Below are positions 24,815 to 48,977 of a DNA stretch of 64,000 nt, in pieces. The position numbers and the translations under genes were made by a program. The stretch comes from Holdemania sp. Marseille-P2844 (lineage in GTDB: Bacteria; Bacillota_I; Bacilli_A; Erysipelotrichales; Erysipelotrichaceae). Below the pieces are notes generated by a model. The model searched no databases and had not been told where the DNA came from. It worked only from the letters and a program-made list of their open reading frames with translations. The DNA is taken from contig NZ_LT635454.1 in assembly GCF_900120005.1 (NCBI RefSeq), positions 1-64,000 of the forward strand, in the 5' to 3' direction. The first letter of the stretch is position 1; every line of letters starts with the position of its first letter.

Positions 24815-25582
24815 ATGCTTCAGGGATTCTTAGTCGCGCTCGTCGCAACCTTGATCTACATGGAAAGCCGCATCGGCGGTCAGCACATGCTGGACCGGCC
24901 AATTCTCATCGGCCCGATCGTCGGCCTGATCATGGGGGATTTCACCATGGGCCTGATCATCGGCGGTAATCTGGAACTGGTCTGGATGGGCTTAGTCGGT
25001 ATCGGAACATCCACGCCGCCGGATGTCGTTGTCGGCAGTGCGCTGGCCACTGCGCTGGCAATCAAAACCGGCGCTTCCTACGAAACCACGCTGGCCCTGG
25101 CGATTCCAATCGCACTGCTGGCCCAGGTCGGTTCCATCGGCGTCTGCATCCTCAACACCACCTTCGCGCACCGCGCTGACAAATGCGCCGACAAGGGCGA
25201 CTGGAAGGGCGTTGAAATGTCCAACTGGATGGGCAGCGCGCTGTACTTCGTCTTCAAATTCACGATGATTTTCTTAGGCTTCTTGATCGGCGGCGACGTC
25301 ATCACGGCGATCGTCAACAACATTCCGGCCGTTATCCAGTCCGGTTTGGCTCAGTCCGGCAACCTGCTTCCGGCGTTAGGAATCGCGATGTTGATTCAGC
25401 TGACCTTTGACAAGAAGTTCGCGGCGTTCTTATTCCTGGGCTTCGCTTTAGTCGCTTTCTTCAACGTCAGCACGATTGCCGCAGCGGTGATCGGCGTAAT
25501 CTGCGCTTATGTTTACTACCAGTTCGCTCCGAGCGGCAAGTCCGGCTCCATGAGCGCCAGCGATGAAAGTGAGGAACTGTAA
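24815..25582 (+). CDS. PTS mannose-family EIIC component (locus 1)
   Basis: 255 residues, a multi-pass membrane protein with EII-Sor/EIIC features: GGQHMLDRPILIGPIVGLIMGD and GGNLELVWMGLVGIGTSTPPD. Together with EIID it forms the sugar channel. RBS is AAGGAGGG. Its end is followed within 2 nt by the EIID start, so the two are made together. Confidence 0.94.
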   Translation: MLQGFLVALVATLIYMESRIGGQHMLDRPILIGPIVGLIMGDFTMGLIIGGNLELVWMGLVGIGTSTPPDVVVGSALATALAIKTGASYETTLALAIPIALLAQVGSIGVCILNTTFAHRADKCADKGDWKGVEMSNWMGSALYFVFKFTMIFLGFLIGGDVITAIVNNIPAVIQSGLAQSGNLLPALGIAMLIQLTFDKKFAAFLFLGFALVAFFNVSTIAAAVIGVICAYVYYQFAPSGKSGSMSASDESEEL

Positions 25583-42267: not shown

Positions 42268-42291
42268 AATGATTACAAAGCTTTCTATAAT
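42268..42291 (+). promoter_or_regulatory. Locus 3 promoter region with the shared 18-nt motif
   Basis: AATGATTACAAAGCTTTC (42268-42285) runs directly into a -10 box TATAAT (42286-42291). The same 18 bases occur in reverse at 54489-54506 before locus 4. The motif overlaps the spacer of the promoter, so a bound protein would block or reshape polymerase binding. The -35 is weak. Confidence 0.6.
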
Positions 42292-42325: not shown

Positions 42326-42727
42326 GTGAAATATCTGATCGCGAGTCATGGCGAATACGCCGCCGGACTGACCAGCGCGGTGTGCCGGCTGGCAGGCGAA
42401 AATCCGGACGTGACAGCCCTGTGTGCCTATACCGACGAAACGCCTCTGGAAACCCGCATGCAGAAGATCATGGAGGGCCACGAAGCGGAAACCTGGATTA
42501 TCATGACCGACCTGCTGGGCGGCAGCGTCAATCAATACATGATGCGCAGCCTGCTGAAGCCCAACTGCCACATCCTCGCCGGGGTCAATCTCGAATTGAT
42601 TCTCAACGTGCTGAAACTGGAAGAAACAGACGATCTGGCCGCTGATCTGCAGCGCTGCGTCAGCGAAGCGCAGAGCCGGATCTGTTATGTTAATTCATTT
42701 ATTCAAAAGAAAGGAAGCGAGAGCTGA
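42326..42727 (+). CDS. PTS mannose-family EIIA component (locus 3, first copy)
   Basis: 133 residues from a GTG start that follows AGAGGAATAAT; this start gives the normal EIIA length, and the nearest upstream in-frame ATG lies within the -10 box. YLIASHGEYAAGL holds the active His8, and MTDLLGGSVNQYMM is the second loop. First gene of locus 3, followed by the fused EIIC-EIID. Confidence 0.9.
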   Translation: MKYLIASHGEYAAGLTSAVCRLAGENPDVTALCAYTDETPLETRMQKIMEGHEAETWIIMTDLLGGSVNQYMMRSLLKPNCHILAGVNLELILNVLKLEETDDLAADLQRCVSEAQSRICYVNSFIQKKGSES

Positions 42728-42785: not shown

Positions 42786-44357
42786 ATGTTACTAAACGCA
42801 CTGCTTCTGTCGTTGATCTATCTCGTGTCGAGAACCGATATGATCAACGGTTACATGATGCTGACCAAACCGATCGTTCTCGGACCGCTGGTCGGCCTGG
42901 TTTTGGGGGATCTGCAAGCCGGAATTCTGATCGGCGCCACGCTGGAGCTGGCCTTCATCGGCGTCATGAACATCGGTATTTCGGTATCCATGGACGTTTC
43001 CATCGCAACGATCGTCGGCGGCGGGCTGGCGATTCTGTCCGGTCAGGACGCGGCGTTCGCGCTGACCATCGCAATTCCGACCGGCATTCTGTTCAATATG
43101 TTAAAAACGTTCATCCGCGTCGTCATGCAGTACTGGATCGTCGAGATGCAGAAAGCCTGCGAAATCGGCGATTACAAGAAGGTGGAACGGTATCACTGGC
43201 TGACCTGGTGGCTGTTCAGTCTGATCATGATGATTCTGGTCTTCGCGTCCATCTATTTAGGCACCGGCGCAGTTCAGGCGGTCGTCGATTTCATTCCGCA
43301 GTGGATCTACAACGGCTTGAAGGTCGGCACGTCGATCTTGCCGGCACTGGGCTTCGCGATGCTGCTGAATATGATCTGGACCCGCGAAATCGGCGCGTTC
43401 TACTTCATCGGCTTCGTGCTGTCAGCCTTCCTGGGCATGACCAACACGGGCGTCGCGATCCTGGGCGCAGCCTTCGCGGTGATCGCCTTCTTCTTCATCA
43501 AGTCGGAGGACAAGGAAGCGGCGGAAGAGGAAGTCACGGACGAAAAGCGCGAAACCAAGCGTCTGAGCCGCAAGGCGTTAATGGGCGTGTACTGGCGCGC
43601 ACATACGCTGGAAGCTTCGTTCAACTATCAGAATTATCAGGGCTCGGGTTATTGCTACGCGATGATTCCGGCGTTAAAAGAACTCTATCCGGATAAGAAG
43701 GATCTGGCGATGGCGCTCAGCCGTCACTATGAATTCTTCAACACGACGCCGCAGGTATCGACACTGATCTTCGGTATCTCCTGCGCGATGGAAGAAGAAA
43801 TCTCGAGCAATCCGGATCTGGCTCCGGCTTCGGTCAACGCTGTCAAAGCAGCGCTGATGGGACCGCTGGCCGGCATCGGCGATTCGCTGTTCCAGGGCAC
43901 CTTCCGCGTCATCGCGGCCGGCGTCGCGGCGCAGTTAGGCTTACAGGGCAACGTGCTGGCGCCTTTCGTCTTCATTCTGCTCTACAACGCACCGCATTTC
44001 CTGGCCCGCTGGTATCTGATGTGGAAGTCGTATGATTTCGGAAGCAAGTTTATCAACAAGATCTACAAGTCGAACATCATGGACAAGCTGACGCTGTGCT
44101 TCGGCATCCTGGGCCTGATGGTGATCGGCGCGATGACGATGTCGATGGTTTCGGTTTCGACGCCGTTAGTCATTCAGTTTGGCCAGATGGAACCGTTAGC
44201 GCTGCAGTCGCTGTTTGATGAAATTCTGCCGGGCCTGCTGCCGCTGTGCATTACGTGGGCGACCGCCTGGCTGTTAAAGAAGCAGGTCAACATGCTGCAC
44301 ATCATGATCGGCATGTTCATTCTGGGCATCGTCTGCAACGTCATCGGCATTCTCTAA
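42786..44357 (+). CDS. Fused PTS EIIC-EIID protein (locus 3)
   Basis: 523 residues in one uninterrupted frame. Residues 1-240 are EIIC (MLTKPIVLGPLVGLVLGD, GATLELAFIGVMNIG). A charged linker follows at about 239-261 (acidic, then Lys/Arg). Residues 262-523 are EIID (YWRAHTLEASFNYQNYQG, CAMEEEISSN, KAALMGPLAGIGDSLFQGTFRVI). In the other three loci these are two adjacent genes. The fusion keeps both domains full length, so it is likely active. RBS is AAAGGGG. Confidence 0.93.
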   Translation: MLLNALLLSLIYLVSRTDMINGYMMLTKPIVLGPLVGLVLGDLQAGILIGATLELAFIGVMNIGISVSMDVSIATIVGGGLAILSGQDAAFALTIAIPTGILFNMLKTFIRVVMQYWIVEMQKACEIGDYKKVERYHWLTWWLFSLIMMILVFASIYLGTGAVQAVVDFIPQWIYNGLKVGTSILPALGFAMLLNMIWTREIGAFYFIGFVLSAFLGMTNTGVAILGAAFAVIAFFFIKSEDKEAAEEEVTDEKRETKRLSRKALMGVYWRAHTLEASFNYQNYQGSGYCYAMIPALKELYPDKKDLAMALSRHYEFFNTTPQVSTLIFGISCAMEEEISSNPDLAPASVNAVKAALMGPLAGIGDSLFQGTFRVIAAGVAAQLGLQGNVLAPFVFILLYNAPHFLARWYLMWKSYDFGSKFINKIYKSNIMDKLTLCFGILGLMVIGAMTMSMVSVSTPLVIQFGQMEPLALQSLFDEILPGLLPLCITWATAWLLKKQVNMLHIMIGMFILGIVCNVIGIL

Positions 44358-44539: not shown

Positions 44540-45628
44540 ATGGAAACGATGATGGGTTATATTGAAGAAAGCGCGGCGCAGTGCCGCCGCAACATCGAAC
44601 AAGCTTCACAGCTGGTACAGCCGGCCGTCGATCTGTATACGAAAAAGGAGTACAACCGGATCCTGATCATCGCCTCCGGATCTTCCTACAACGGCTCCTG
44701 TCTGGCAAAATACTTTGTCGAAAAGGTCCTCAAGGTCAGAACGGAAGTCGTCACTTCGTTTACCTTTAATCATTATGAAACGATCTTTGATGAAAAGACG
44801 TTTGTCTTCGGCGCGGGGCAGAGCGGCCGTTCGACCAACACCAACGACGCCCTGCAGAAAGCCCGCGATCATGGCCTGACGGCGATCGGCCTGACCGGCA
44901 ATGTCGAGAGCGTCATGAAGGAGCATTGCGATCTGTGTCTGAACTGGGGCATGGGGATTGAAAAGATCGGTTTTGTCACCAAGGGCGTCGTCACGCTCGG
45001 CTTATACTACATGTTGTTCGCGATTGAGGCGGGCAAGGCCAAGGGCCTGATCAGCGCGGAAGAAGCCGCCGGATATTATGAACAGCTGAAGCAGGCCTGT
45101 GACACGATGGATCAGACGGTGGAAAAAGCAAAACTCTGGTATGCCGCCAATGAAGCAGAGCTGACCGACCTCAAGCGCGTGCAGATTCTGGGCTATGGCC
45201 CGAATCACGCCGTTGCACTGGAAGGGGCGTTGAAGATCGCGGAGACGACCGGCCATGCCGCGACCGCTTATGAGATGGAGGAATTCCTGCATGGACCATC
45301 GATTGAGACCAACGCTGAGCGCACGGTGATCATCGTCGATTCGCTGGGACAGCCGAGCGACCGCGCGGTCAAAATGTACGAAAGCGTCCATGAGCTCACC
45401 TCCCGCGTCTATCTGATCACCAACCGCAAGATCGACGATCCGAAAGTGCTGACGATCAATCATCATCTCGACGAACATTTCAGCGTCCTGTTCAACGTCA
45501 TCCCATTCCAGGTGATCTCCGCGATGGGCCGCGACAAATGGGTCAATCCGCTGGACGAAGCCCGCAAACGGATGAACGACATCATGGGCTCCAAAGCGCC
45601 GAAAACCGGCAACGAAGTCGGCTTGTAA
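44540..45628 (+). CDS. SIS-domain sugar-phosphate deglycase/isomerase (locus 3)
   Basis: 362 residues with two SIS domains: ILIIASGSSYNGSC and GAGQSGRSTNT, then GYGPNHAVALEGALKIAETTG and YEMEEFLHGPSIE. The sequence FVTKGVV at the equivalent position groups it with the second locus 1 SIS (TKG subgroup). RBS is AAGGAGG. It likely releases an amine or amino acid from the phosphorylated adduct, or deaminates an amino sugar phosphate. EIIB follows after 21 nt. Confidence 0.84.
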   Translation: METMMGYIEESAAQCRRNIEQASQLVQPAVDLYTKKEYNRILIIASGSSYNGSCLAKYFVEKVLKVRTEVVTSFTFNHYETIFDEKTFVFGAGQSGRSTNTNDALQKARDHGLTAIGLTGNVESVMKEHCDLCLNWGMGIEKIGFVTKGVVTLGLYYMLFAIEAGKAKGLISAEEAAGYYEQLKQACDTMDQTVEKAKLWYAANEAELTDLKRVQILGYGPNHAVALEGALKIAETTGHAATAYEMEEFLHGPSIETNAERTVIIVDSLGQPSDRAVKMYESVHELTSRVYLITNRKIDDPKVLTINHHLDEHFSVLFNVIPFQVISAMGRDKWVNPLDEARKRMNDIMGSKAPKTGNEVGL

Positions 45629-45649: not shown

Positions 45650-46129
45650 ATGATAAAATTACTGCGTGTTGACGACCGTCTGATCCACGGCGCGGTCGGA
45701 TTTTCCTGGACGAAGCAGCTGTCGATCAACATGATCATCCTTGCCAACGACGCGATCGCCAAGGATGATTTCCAGAAGATGACGCTGGATATCGCCAAGC
45801 CGCGGGGAACGAAGCTGGTCTGCGAAAGCGTGGAGAAAGCGAAGGCGCTGATCCGCACTCACTTAAAAAGCAGCACCAACGTCATGGTCATCACCAACAA
45901 CATCCCTGACGCCGCCGATATCCTCACCAGCATCCCGGAAATCGGTTCGCTGAATCTGGGCGGAATCCGCAAGAACGCTGAAACGAAGGAGAACCTGATC
46001 GGCGCGATCGCGGTATCGCAGAAGGATATCGAGCTGTGCAACAAGCTGGTCAGCGACGGCTTTGAGGTCGAGCTGCGCCTGATTCCGGATGGGAAGAAGA
46101 CGTACTTCAAGGATTATAAGCTGCAGTAG
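45650..46129 (+). CDS. PTS mannose-family EIIB component (locus 3, first copy)
   Basis: 159 residues with LLRVDDRLIHGAVGFSW (His13), ILANDAIAKDDF and DIAKPRG. RBS is AAGGAGG. It is 51 nt before the PRD regulator ATG. It would phosphorylate the sugar carried by the fused EIICD. Confidence 0.93.
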   Translation: MIKLLRVDDRLIHGAVGFSWTKQLSINMIILANDAIAKDDFQKMTLDIAKPRGTKLVCESVEKAKALIRTHLKSSTNVMVITNNIPDAADILTSIPEIGSLNLGGIRKNAETKENLIGAIAVSQKDIELCNKLVSDGFEVELRLIPDGKKTYFKDYKLQ

Positions 46130-46180
46130 CACATCATGCAGGGGCAACCCTGCATTCTTTTAAGAGAGGAGGGGAAGCGG

Positions 46181-48100
46181 ATGGAATACATCAGCGACCG
46201 CCTGGAACAAATTTTGATTTTGCTGGGGGAAGCCTCCCAGCCGCTGACCAGCGCTCAGCTGGCGGAAAAGGTCAAGGTGTCGGCGCGCACGGTCAAAAAA
46301 GACATCGGCGAGCTGAACGCGATCCTCAAGGACTACGACGCGGCGATTCTGGCCCGGACCGGGGTCGGTTACCAGCTGTCGGTGGGCGATGAATTTCTCT
46401 ATAATCAGTTTCTGACGGAGCTGAAGCGGCGTGAGCTGCGAACCGCGCAGACCGTGCCGAAGTACCGCTACGAACGCGTCAATTACATCGTGAAGAAGCT
46501 GTTGACGGTGGATTACTATCTGACGATCGAGGATTTAGTCGACGAGCTGTATATCAGCCGCTCCACGCTGACCGCCGATCTGAAGGAAGTGCGGGAAATC
46601 TTCAAGGACTACAATTTGGAGCTGATTTCCCGGCCGAATTATGGAATATTGTTAGTTGGGGAGGAAATCGCCAAACGGCTGTGCATCGCCGAATATTTCT
46701 TTCACGCCAATGTCTCGACCGGCTATTTTGCGGCTGACAACGCGATGTTTGTTTCCAGCACCAATCAGAATGAAATCCGGTTTGTGCGCGACCTGTTGGA
46801 AGAAATTATGGAAAAATACGGCATTCACATGTCCGATCAGTCGCTGCAGAATTTCGTGATCCACATCATCGTCTCCATCCGGCGCTGGAAATTCTACAAT
46901 TACGTAAAAATTGAGAACGGAAATCTGGATGAGTTTCGAACGAGCGTCGCGCGGGAATGGCCGGCGGCACAGGATTTGGTGCAGCGGCTGCAGGACAAGC
47001 TGGAAATCTTATTGCCGCAGGAGGAGATTCTCTACTTCGCGCTGCATTTCAAGTCCAAGCACATCACGGAACTGGACGAAATTACCAGCGAGGAAATCGA
47101 ACAGGTGGAGAAAACGCTGTACGATATTTACCGGATGCTGCAAAAGCGCTTCGGCGTGATCGCGATCAATAAGGATCGCTACGAGGAATATCTGCGGATG
47201 CACATCCCGGCGATGGTTGCGCGGCTGCGCAGCGGTCTGGTCATGCGCAATCCGATGATCTATGAATTCCTGAATAAATATTTGTTTTCCACTCACATCA
47301 CGATGATGATCAGCGATATTCTGGAACAGAATTTCAACGTCCGGATGAATAAAAACGAATTCGCCTATCTCGTGCTGTATACCAATCTGTTGTTCTCCAC
47401 GGAGAGCCGTCCGCACGGCGCCAAGATTTTAGTCGTGTGCGGACGGGGCCGGCCGGAAACGATCACGCTGATCAATGAGATCAACGAAAACCACGCGGCG
47501 CTGGCGAACATGATTGAGATCTGCGACGTCGGCGAGCTGGAAAATCATGATCTGCATCAGGCGGAACTGATCCTCAGCACGGTGCCGCTGCAGGCATCCT
47601 ATCCGGTGCCGTCGATTTATATGGATGGCCGGCTGTCGTATGGCGAACAGATCCAGCAGTCGATCAAGCACAACCGCCTGTCCTTCCGCAAGCTGGCGCG
47701 CTATTTCTCCCCGCGCTATTTCAACGGCAGTCTTAAGGGGAGCGTGCGCGACGAGGTGTTCCGCGAGGTGGCTAAAGCGTTTGACAACTGGAAAGAGATT
47801 CTGGCGATGTTTTGGGAAGCGGAGCATATCCTGTCGCATGAAACGACCAAAGGCGTCGTCTTCCTGCACACGCTGAAACCCCTGCCGGAAAGCTTCATCT
47901 ATATCGGTTTTCTGAAAAAGCCGATCATCTGGAACAAGCTGTGGGCGCAGGCGGTCATCTTCGTCAACATCAACGGCGATCTGGATTCGCTGCGGCTGGG
48001 CTATGATTTCATCAGCGAGATGATCAACGATCCCCGCGAACCGTTTTCAGGGAAAATCACGGAGTATGAAGATTTGATTGAAGTGTTAAGTAAAAATTAG
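46181..48100 (+). CDS. PRD-containing BglG/MtlR-type regulator (locus 3)
   Basis: 639 residues. An N-terminal HTH (residues about 5-60, LTSAQLAEKVKVSARTVKKDI) and a second HTH (about 95-150, YISRSTLTADL) precede two PRD-like regions (about 170-400). An EIIB-like domain (ILVVCGRGRPETI) and an EIIA2-like end (about 500-639) with a conserved-type His in VVFLHTL follow. Such regulators are switched by PTS phosphorylation of PRD and EII-like His/Cys residues. Start chosen for GAGGAGGGGAAGCGG. The first HTH and domain order fit a DNA-binding activator rather than an RNA-binding antiterminator. Confidence 0.86.
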   Translation: MEYISDRLEQILILLGEASQPLTSAQLAEKVKVSARTVKKDIGELNAILKDYDAAILARTGVGYQLSVGDEFLYNQFLTELKRRELRTAQTVPKYRYERVNYIVKKLLTVDYYLTIEDLVDELYISRSTLTADLKEVREIFKDYNLELISRPNYGILLVGEEIAKRLCIAEYFFHANVSTGYFAADNAMFVSSTNQNEIRFVRDLLEEIMEKYGIHMSDQSLQNFVIHIIVSIRRWKFYNYVKIENGNLDEFRTSVAREWPAAQDLVQRLQDKLEILLPQEEILYFALHFKSKHITELDEITSEEIEQVEKTLYDIYRMLQKRFGVIAINKDRYEEYLRMHIPAMVARLRSGLVMRNPMIYEFLNKYLFSTHITMMISDILEQNFNVRMNKNEFAYLVLYTNLLFSTESRPHGAKILVVCGRGRPETITLINEINENHAALANMIEICDVGELENHDLHQAELILSTVPLQASYPVPSIYMDGRLSYGEQIQQSIKHNRLSFRKLARYFSPRYFNGSLKGSVRDEVFREVAKAFDNWKEILAMFWEAEHILSHETTKGVVFLHTLKPLPESFIYIGFLKKPIIWNKLWAQAVIFVNINGDLDSLRLGYDFISEMINDPREPFSGKITEYEDLIEVLSKN

Positions 48101-48114
48101 AAAGGAGCGGGCAC

Positions 48115-48498
48115 ATGCGATATTTGATTGCCGGACATGGCGACTATGCCCAGGGCGTGGCCAACACGCTGAAATTTTTTAAGGATGATCTGAACAATGT
48201 GGATCTGCTTCCGTACAATAACGATTTTGAACAACAGCTGCAGGCGTATCTGGACCGGCGGGATCCGGCGGAGCCGTTGTGCGTCGTGACGGATCTGGTC
48301 GGGGGGAGCGTCAATCTGGAAGCGATGCGGCAGCTGCGAACGCGGGATTTCTATCTGATCAGCGGAGCGAATATTTCGGTGTTATTGGAAATGTTGTTTT
48401 CCGAGGTGAGCGACGGGACGCAGATCGAGGAGATTGTAAACGCGGCGAAGGATCAGATGGTTTATGTCAATGCCATGATGGGAGCGCGGTCTGAATGA
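48115..48498 (+). CDS. PTS mannose-family EIIA component (locus 3, second copy)
   Basis: 127 residues with YLIAGHGDYAQGV (His8) and VTDLVGGSVNLEAM. RBS is AAAGGAG. It follows the PRD regulator by 14 nt and overlaps the next EIIB by 4 nt. The locus already has an EIIA, so this one may serve regulation of the PRD protein, a second sugar, or a channel encoded elsewhere. Confidence 0.9.
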   Translation: MRYLIAGHGDYAQGVANTLKFFKDDLNNVDLLPYNNDFEQQLQAYLDRRDPAEPLCVVTDLVGGSVNLEAMRQLRTRDFYLISGANISVLLEMLFSEVSDGTQIEEIVNAAKDQMVYVNAMMGARSE

Positions 48499-48977
48499 TC
48501 CGACAGGTCAGCGTGGACGATCGCCTGCTTCATGGACAGGTGGCGTTTTACTGGACCAGCTATTACAATCTGGATATGATTCTCGTCCTGAACGACGAGG
48601 CGGCAAACGACGAATTCACCAAGATGATTCTGGGGCTGGCGAAGCCGCGCGAGGTGCGCTTACAGATCGCGGAGGTGGAAGCGGGCTTTGAGATCGTACG
48701 CAGGCAGCTGGAATCGCCGGACAACGTGCTGATCATCGTCGGCAGTCTGTTCGACGCCAATCAGGTGCTGGAACATTTCCGCGAGCTGAAAACGCTGAAT
48801 CTGGGCGGCCTGCGGATGCGCCCCAACGGGAAGATCCTGAACGAGCGGACGGCGCTGACCAGCGAGGACATCGCGATCTGCCGGCGGTTGTTAGAACGGA
48901 AGATTACGATCACGGTGCGGCATTCGCCCGAGGCAGCGGAAAGCTTGTTGACGGAGAGCGTGCTGAAGCAGCTTTAG
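48495..48977 (+). CDS. PTS mannose-family EIIB component (locus 3, second copy)
   Basis: 160 residues with VSVDDRLLHGQVAFYW (His13), LVLNDEAANDEF and GLAKPREV. It overlaps the EIIA stop (ATGA) and ends locus 3. The pair lacks its own EIIC-EIID. Confidence 0.9.
   Translation: MIRQVSVDDRLLHGQVAFYWTSYYNLDMILVLNDEAANDEFTKMILGLAKPREVRLQIAEVEAGFEIVRRQLESPDNVLIIVGSLFDANQVLEHFRELKTLNLGGLRMRPNGKILNERTALTSEDIAICRRLLERKITITVRHSPEAAESLLTESVLKQL

Follow-up and report, generated by a model that had tools for sequence, protein, structure and literature searches.

A natural EIIC-EIID gene fusion in Holdemania and the probable recurrence of single-chain mannose-family PTS permeases

The window analysed here is a stretch of 64,000 nucleotides from Holdemania sp. 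Marseille-P2844 (contig NZ_LT635454.1). On its plus strand, at 42786..44357, lies a gene that joins the two membrane subunits of a PTS permease, EIIC and EIID (IICD): it has an ATG start, 523 codons and no internal stop, and encodes 523 amino acids. The EIIC domain (42792..43484, plus strand, residues 3-233) is ManY-like in both sequence and fold and is full length: it covers positions 2-233 of the 233 of the Pfam profile EII-Sor (PF03609), with an E-value of 1.4e-66 and a score of 224.7 bits against a cut-off of 26.3. The EIID domain (43563..44354, plus strand, residues 260-523) has a ManZ-like fold and is full length too, matching positions 2-265 of the 265 of EIID-AGA (PF03613) with an E-value of 2.4e-97 and 325.7 bits against a cut-off of 25. 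The two are connected by an acidic linker (43500..43556, plus strand, residues 239-257) within a charged stretch of about residues 238-259. A first-pass annotation had described one frame of 523 residues with complete EIIC and EIID domains and a charged linker between them; open reading frame and Pfam matches agree with this description, and the linker is present.

The same frame is found unbroken in Holdemania filiformis DSM 12042 (100% identity), in H. massiliensis AP2 (97% identity) and, with 43-45% identity, in an uncultured Erysipelotrichaceae MAG. Between the window gene and that of H. massiliensis, 17 of 523 residues differ and dN/dS is 0.034 overall, 0.031 for the EIIC domain and 0.022 for the EIID domain: both domains are under strong purifying selection. 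A missed stop codon or frameshift between the domains, named in the first-pass annotation as the observation that would speak against a fusion, is excluded by the open frame shared by four genomes. An isolated stop can be present in a frame of this kind, as a related locus (L140) shows, but with this shared frame and a dN/dS of 0.034 we attach practically no probability to a sequencing or assembly artefact. Judged from its sequence, the gene is a genuine, natural EIIC-EIID fusion that encodes one polypeptide.

The fused gene is part of an operon with the order EIIA, fused gene, SIS-domain protein, EIIB, PRD-type regulator and second EIIA/EIIB, all on the plus strand. The first EIIA (42326..42727) matches Pfam EIIA-man and has the histidine of its motif in LIASHGEYA; its frame has an ATG at 42269, but a GTG at 42326, preceded by a ribosome-binding-like site, is more in keeping with the starts of the family. 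The EIIB (45650..46129) matches Pfam PTSIIB_sorb and carries the motif DRLIHGAVG. The linked EIIA and EIIB expected of a man-family PTS are therefore both found, with the histidine motifs present, and these histidines are presumably the active, phosphorylatable ones. The transcriptional regulator (46136..48100) has Pfam HTH_11, Mga and PRD domains, and it is followed by a second EIIA (48115..48498) and a second EIIB (48495..48977), both conserved with the fused system.

The SIS-domain protein (44540..45628; Pfam SIS) is, from its domain, probably a sugar-phosphate isomerase, deaminase or deglycase of the pathway; its matches to the NCBIfam models of GlmS, NagB-II and fructoselysine 6-phosphate deglycase are below cut-off. 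These matches weakly suggest an amino sugar or an Amadori product as the substrate. All matches to the NCBIfam substrate models for mannose, GalNAc and galactosamine, subfamily as well as equivalog, were below the curated cut-offs, and for this reason we give the system no substrate name.

We inspected the surroundings of seven loci from the fused clade to which the window gene belongs. At four of the seven (the window, L045, L118 and L119) the SIS protein and the PRD regulator are accompanied by two EIIA and two EIIB; L112 and L113 have one EIIA, one EIIB and a PRD gene, and at L120, on a contig of 6 kb, only a PRD gene was seen. Across the four complete loci the two EIIBs form two lines and so do the EIIAs, less sharply, with the histidine kept in all of them. 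One permease is thus accompanied by two EIIA/EIIB relay pairs at these four loci; the second pair may, as a conjecture, serve the PRD regulator alone.

The window contains three further EIIC/EIID loci, at 24815/25563 (plus strand), 33742/32915 (minus strand) and 57168/57999 (plus strand), and all three have separate genes, as the first-pass annotation had noted. In the whole genome (3.68 Mb, 17 contigs) there are 29 EIID matches, two of them fused. With 29 EIID genes in 3.68 Mb, the genome is rich in man-family PTS permeases. The second fusion (C17:448694-450271, corresponding to 6695-8272 of L039) has confirmed EIIC and EIID domains and belongs to a different fused clade from the window gene. 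In H. filiformis, with all 63 of 63 candidates scored, 37 matches were over the limit and one was a full-length, stop-free fusion; the second fusion of the window's genome was not seen among them.

An AlphaFold2 monomer model of the fused protein was built from 24 alignment rows and is of middling confidence (mean pLDDT 75.9, pTM 0.68); it replaced a model from three rows that was unusable (pLDDT 35.2). In this model both halves have a ManYZ-like fold: the EIID half aligns to ManZ (7dyr_C) with a Z-score of 20.0 and an rmsd of 3.7 over 265 residues (VIA-align), and the EIIC half to ManY (7dyr_B) with a TM-score of 0.71 by target length (Foldseek). At the sequence level, too, the EIIC half matches ManY chains from solved structures. 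The best VIA-align rows are ManZ-type chains; ManY chains are absent among the best 50, which hold one row per entry with its best chain. Rows for LeuT-type and SLC26 proteins, with Z-scores of 4-7, were treated as background.

The C-terminus of EIIC and the N-terminus of EIID are presumably both cytoplasmic. The two ends would then already be on the same side of the membrane, and a flexible tether should be enough to connect them. In the available parts of the literature, IIC and IID are described as oppositely oriented in the membrane (PMC11403280), and inverted halves can be fused when their number of spans is odd (PMC3962082); the sides of the IIC and IID termini were not found stated in the available parts of PMC8021565, PMC12915331, PMC10783117 and PMC5077127. 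Because of the odd helix number and the inverted orientation, the junction would stay on one side whatever the linker, and neither an extra helix nor a special linker should be needed. The first-pass annotation had proposed that the EIID N-terminus depends on the linker to reach the right side; odd helix number and inverted orientation would suffice for this (PMC3962082, as far as available), and the linker's length variation of 11-34 amino acids, its predicted disorder and its fast evolution speak against a special role. The annotation had also held that the fusion fixes a 1:1 stoichiometry. This is right by construction, the sequence being that of one polypeptide, but it is hardly a gain: separate man-PTS subunits, according to the part of PMC11403280 available to us, already assemble as trimers in which every protomer contains a single IIC and a single IID.

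The linker is the fastest-evolving part of the fused gene, and selection on it is much weaker than on the domains: its 19 codons account for six of the 17 residue differences from H. massiliensis (Fisher p 9.6e-6), and its dN/dS is 0.093, a value from few sites. Residues 241-255 have pLDDT values below 50 in the AlphaFold2 model and are thus predicted to be disordered. Linkers are 11-21 amino acids long in the first 31 fusions collected, with net charges from 0 to -12, and up to 34 amino acids in seven fusions added later. A comparable acidic C-terminal tail is present in several separate EIICs, so the linker is probably such a tail read on.

A start codon behind a ribosome-binding-like site, in frame at the junction, is present in one of 38 fusions and in 60 of 70 separate EIIDs, the scanned stretches not being identical in the two groups; at the junction of the window gene no such start was found. 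The rarity of such starts in the fusions argues for a single product. The idea of a fossil ribosome-binding site in the Glu-rich linker DNA was unsupported: GGAGG-like 5-mers are found in 12 of 38 fused linkers, codon-shuffled versions of these linkers give a mean of 10.3 (sd 2.3), and 59 of 70 separate junctions have one. The working complex could nevertheless consist of two proteins, if the fused product were cut after its synthesis or EIID were also made from an internal start. The linker, being charged, predicted disordered and fast-evolving, has the features that a protease site might have, and an ATG follows a weak AAGG where the EIID domain begins. The methionine that this ATG encodes (M266), however, is not conserved in L012, a member of the same clade, and with the window junction lacking a start behind a ribosome-binding-like site, as 37 of 38 fusions do, we regard a two-protein complex as improbable. 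A single chain is the reading that we retain.

The preferred explanation, very probably correct on the available sequence evidence, is that the gene encodes a single-chain membrane permease of the man-family PTS (mannose/fructose/sorbose, TC 4.A.6) with EIIC and EIID in one protein. The chain would fold into a ManY-like and a ManZ-like half of opposite orientation, with the short acidic linker in the cytoplasm, and three chains would form the usual trimer. EIIB would phosphorylate the sugar as it enters; from the SIS neighbour, this may be an amino sugar or an Amadori product. The PRD protein would control the operon.

Fusions of this type are not restricted to Holdemania. A profile of 12 fusions (A1), all 12 of which have both Pfam domains, found at least 35 stop-free fused loci in at least 28 of 272 genomes of the family; with an E-value limit of 1e-120 and at most five candidates scored per genome, these numbers are lower bounds. 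Among the family matches listed, 32 of 67 are interrupted by a stop, located within a domain or between the two. In a draw from the phylum, with three candidates scored per genome, 10 of 392 genomes had a fusion and a single one of them came from outside the family; in a draw around a Lachnoclostridium genome the number was three of 348 (four candidates scored per genome). The plasmid collection has 343 records that match the fusion, 285 of them with one place covering 80% or more; the ten best consist of two pieces each, with separate EIIC and EIID wherever annotated, and the ten rows listed for a query with another fusion (L143) were likewise in two pieces, one of these rows being unannotated. 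One locus in the viral contigs matches profile A1, and a query of the viral contigs with the EIIC half found none. On one contig of the viral collection (L142, 402-3769), genes that are phage-tail-like by eye are joined to manY- and manZ-like genes; transduction or a chimeric assembly may explain this.

A route from separate to fused genes is suggested by the separate pairs. The distance between their EIIC and EIID domains is 17-175 nucleotides, which matches linkers of 11-34 amino acids. The two genes share a frame in 14 of 56 separate pairs, and in 13 of these 14 the frame of EIID is open from immediately behind the stop codon of EIIC. The fused L137 and the separate L136, about 58-60% identical, have junctions of nearly equal length; that of L136 contains stops, a ribosome-binding-like site and an ATG. 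Loss of the EIIC stop together with loss of the EIID ribosome-binding site would give the fusion, and as the separate genes are near neighbours that fairly often share a frame, these two losses are enough. For the same reason, fusion would be a simpler event than fission.

The number of such events was estimated from phylogenetic trees. The loci first used were 31 distinct fusions and 56 distinct separate pairs; after one separate pair with a short EIIC (SEP_L044) had been dropped, the tree of 86 rows required at least seven changes between fused and separate. Forcing all fusions into one clade was rejected (delta lnL 361, p-AU 9.6e-44) on a subset of 41 rows (18 fused, 23 separate) that was chosen by us and analysed with a simpler model. 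An enlarged tree has 103 rows (38 fused, 65 separate); from 108 rows, two short ones were left out, as were L140, L033, whose junction contains ambiguous bases, and L091, in which three stops are not followed by a start. It shows ten fused clades, dispersed among the separate pairs, and ten changes, of which at least eight are left when weak branches are collapsed, and the window gene is in a clade of ten fused rows with a support of 100. Trees of EIIC alone and EIID alone have 11 and 10 changes, with L140 still counted as separate. L140 and the fused gene L143 are close to each other, with 79-82% identity; L140 has a stop inside the start of EIID with no new start after it and looks like a broken fusion or a misread.

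Parsimony does not fix the direction of these changes, and some of them may be fissions: a separate root requires 10 changes and a fused root 11, and the numbers are equal (8 and 8) once weak branches are collapsed. This small difference, and a backbone of low support in places, would suit a single ancient fusion with the separate pairs among the fusions arising by fission. Rejected monophyly of the fusions counts against such a history only in part, as a fused ancestor with many fissions would break monophyly too. The fusions are, however, a minority in both genome draws, and each fission requires a stop, a ribosome-binding site and a start to arise anew; we therefore consider a single origin unlikely. 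On the sequence data, the fusion probably arose repeatedly.

Clostridium beijerinckii belongs to the class Clostridia. The transporter family is an ordinary one, and the EIIC-EIID architecture has been published before: in Table 2 of PMC3024867 (2010), Cbei_2901-2903 of C. beijerinckii NCIMB 8052 are entered as IICD/IIB/IIA. Like the window gene, Cbei_2901 has EIIC and then EIID in one gene, with separate EIIB and EIIA adjoining; it is known to us from this table entry, and its host is a distant Firmicute. This paper is the only one in which we found an IICD gene named, and in its available part we found no discussion of the fusion; nor was an EIIC-EIID fusion found mentioned in the available parts of PMC2405797, PMC2848229 and PMC6872149. 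As far as these searches go, the recurrence of the fusion seems to be undescribed.

Both halves match E. coli ManYZ (PDB 6k1h, 7dyr) by sequence and fold, whereas ManYZ, as well as the man-PTS of Listeria and Lactococcus, consists of two separate polypeptides. Domain fusion inside a man-family enzyme II is also known from ManX-type IIAB proteins (PMC6872149, in the part available), but these join soluble domains and the window gene joins membrane domains. A further parallel in architecture is seen in DUF606 and other antiparallel two-domain membrane proteins, in which an antiparallel related pair also exists as a fusion (described in the available part of PMC3962082); DUF606 is another family, and the gene studied here is a PTS permease.

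We slightly favour the view that the man-family permease is an antiparallel pair that has repeatedly become a single-chain inverted-repeat transporter, with at least eight fusion or fission events in Erysipelotrichaceae and other Firmicutes. A single fused gene is a modest curiosity; its recurrence matters more, as a worked example of the fusion step proposed for the evolution of inverted-repeat transporters. Fused and separate versions within one family are matched pairs, on which the effect of fusion on assembly, stoichiometry and regulation could be studied. If the view is true, fused and separate sisters would allow a direct comparison across the final step that has been postulated for the evolution of such transporters.
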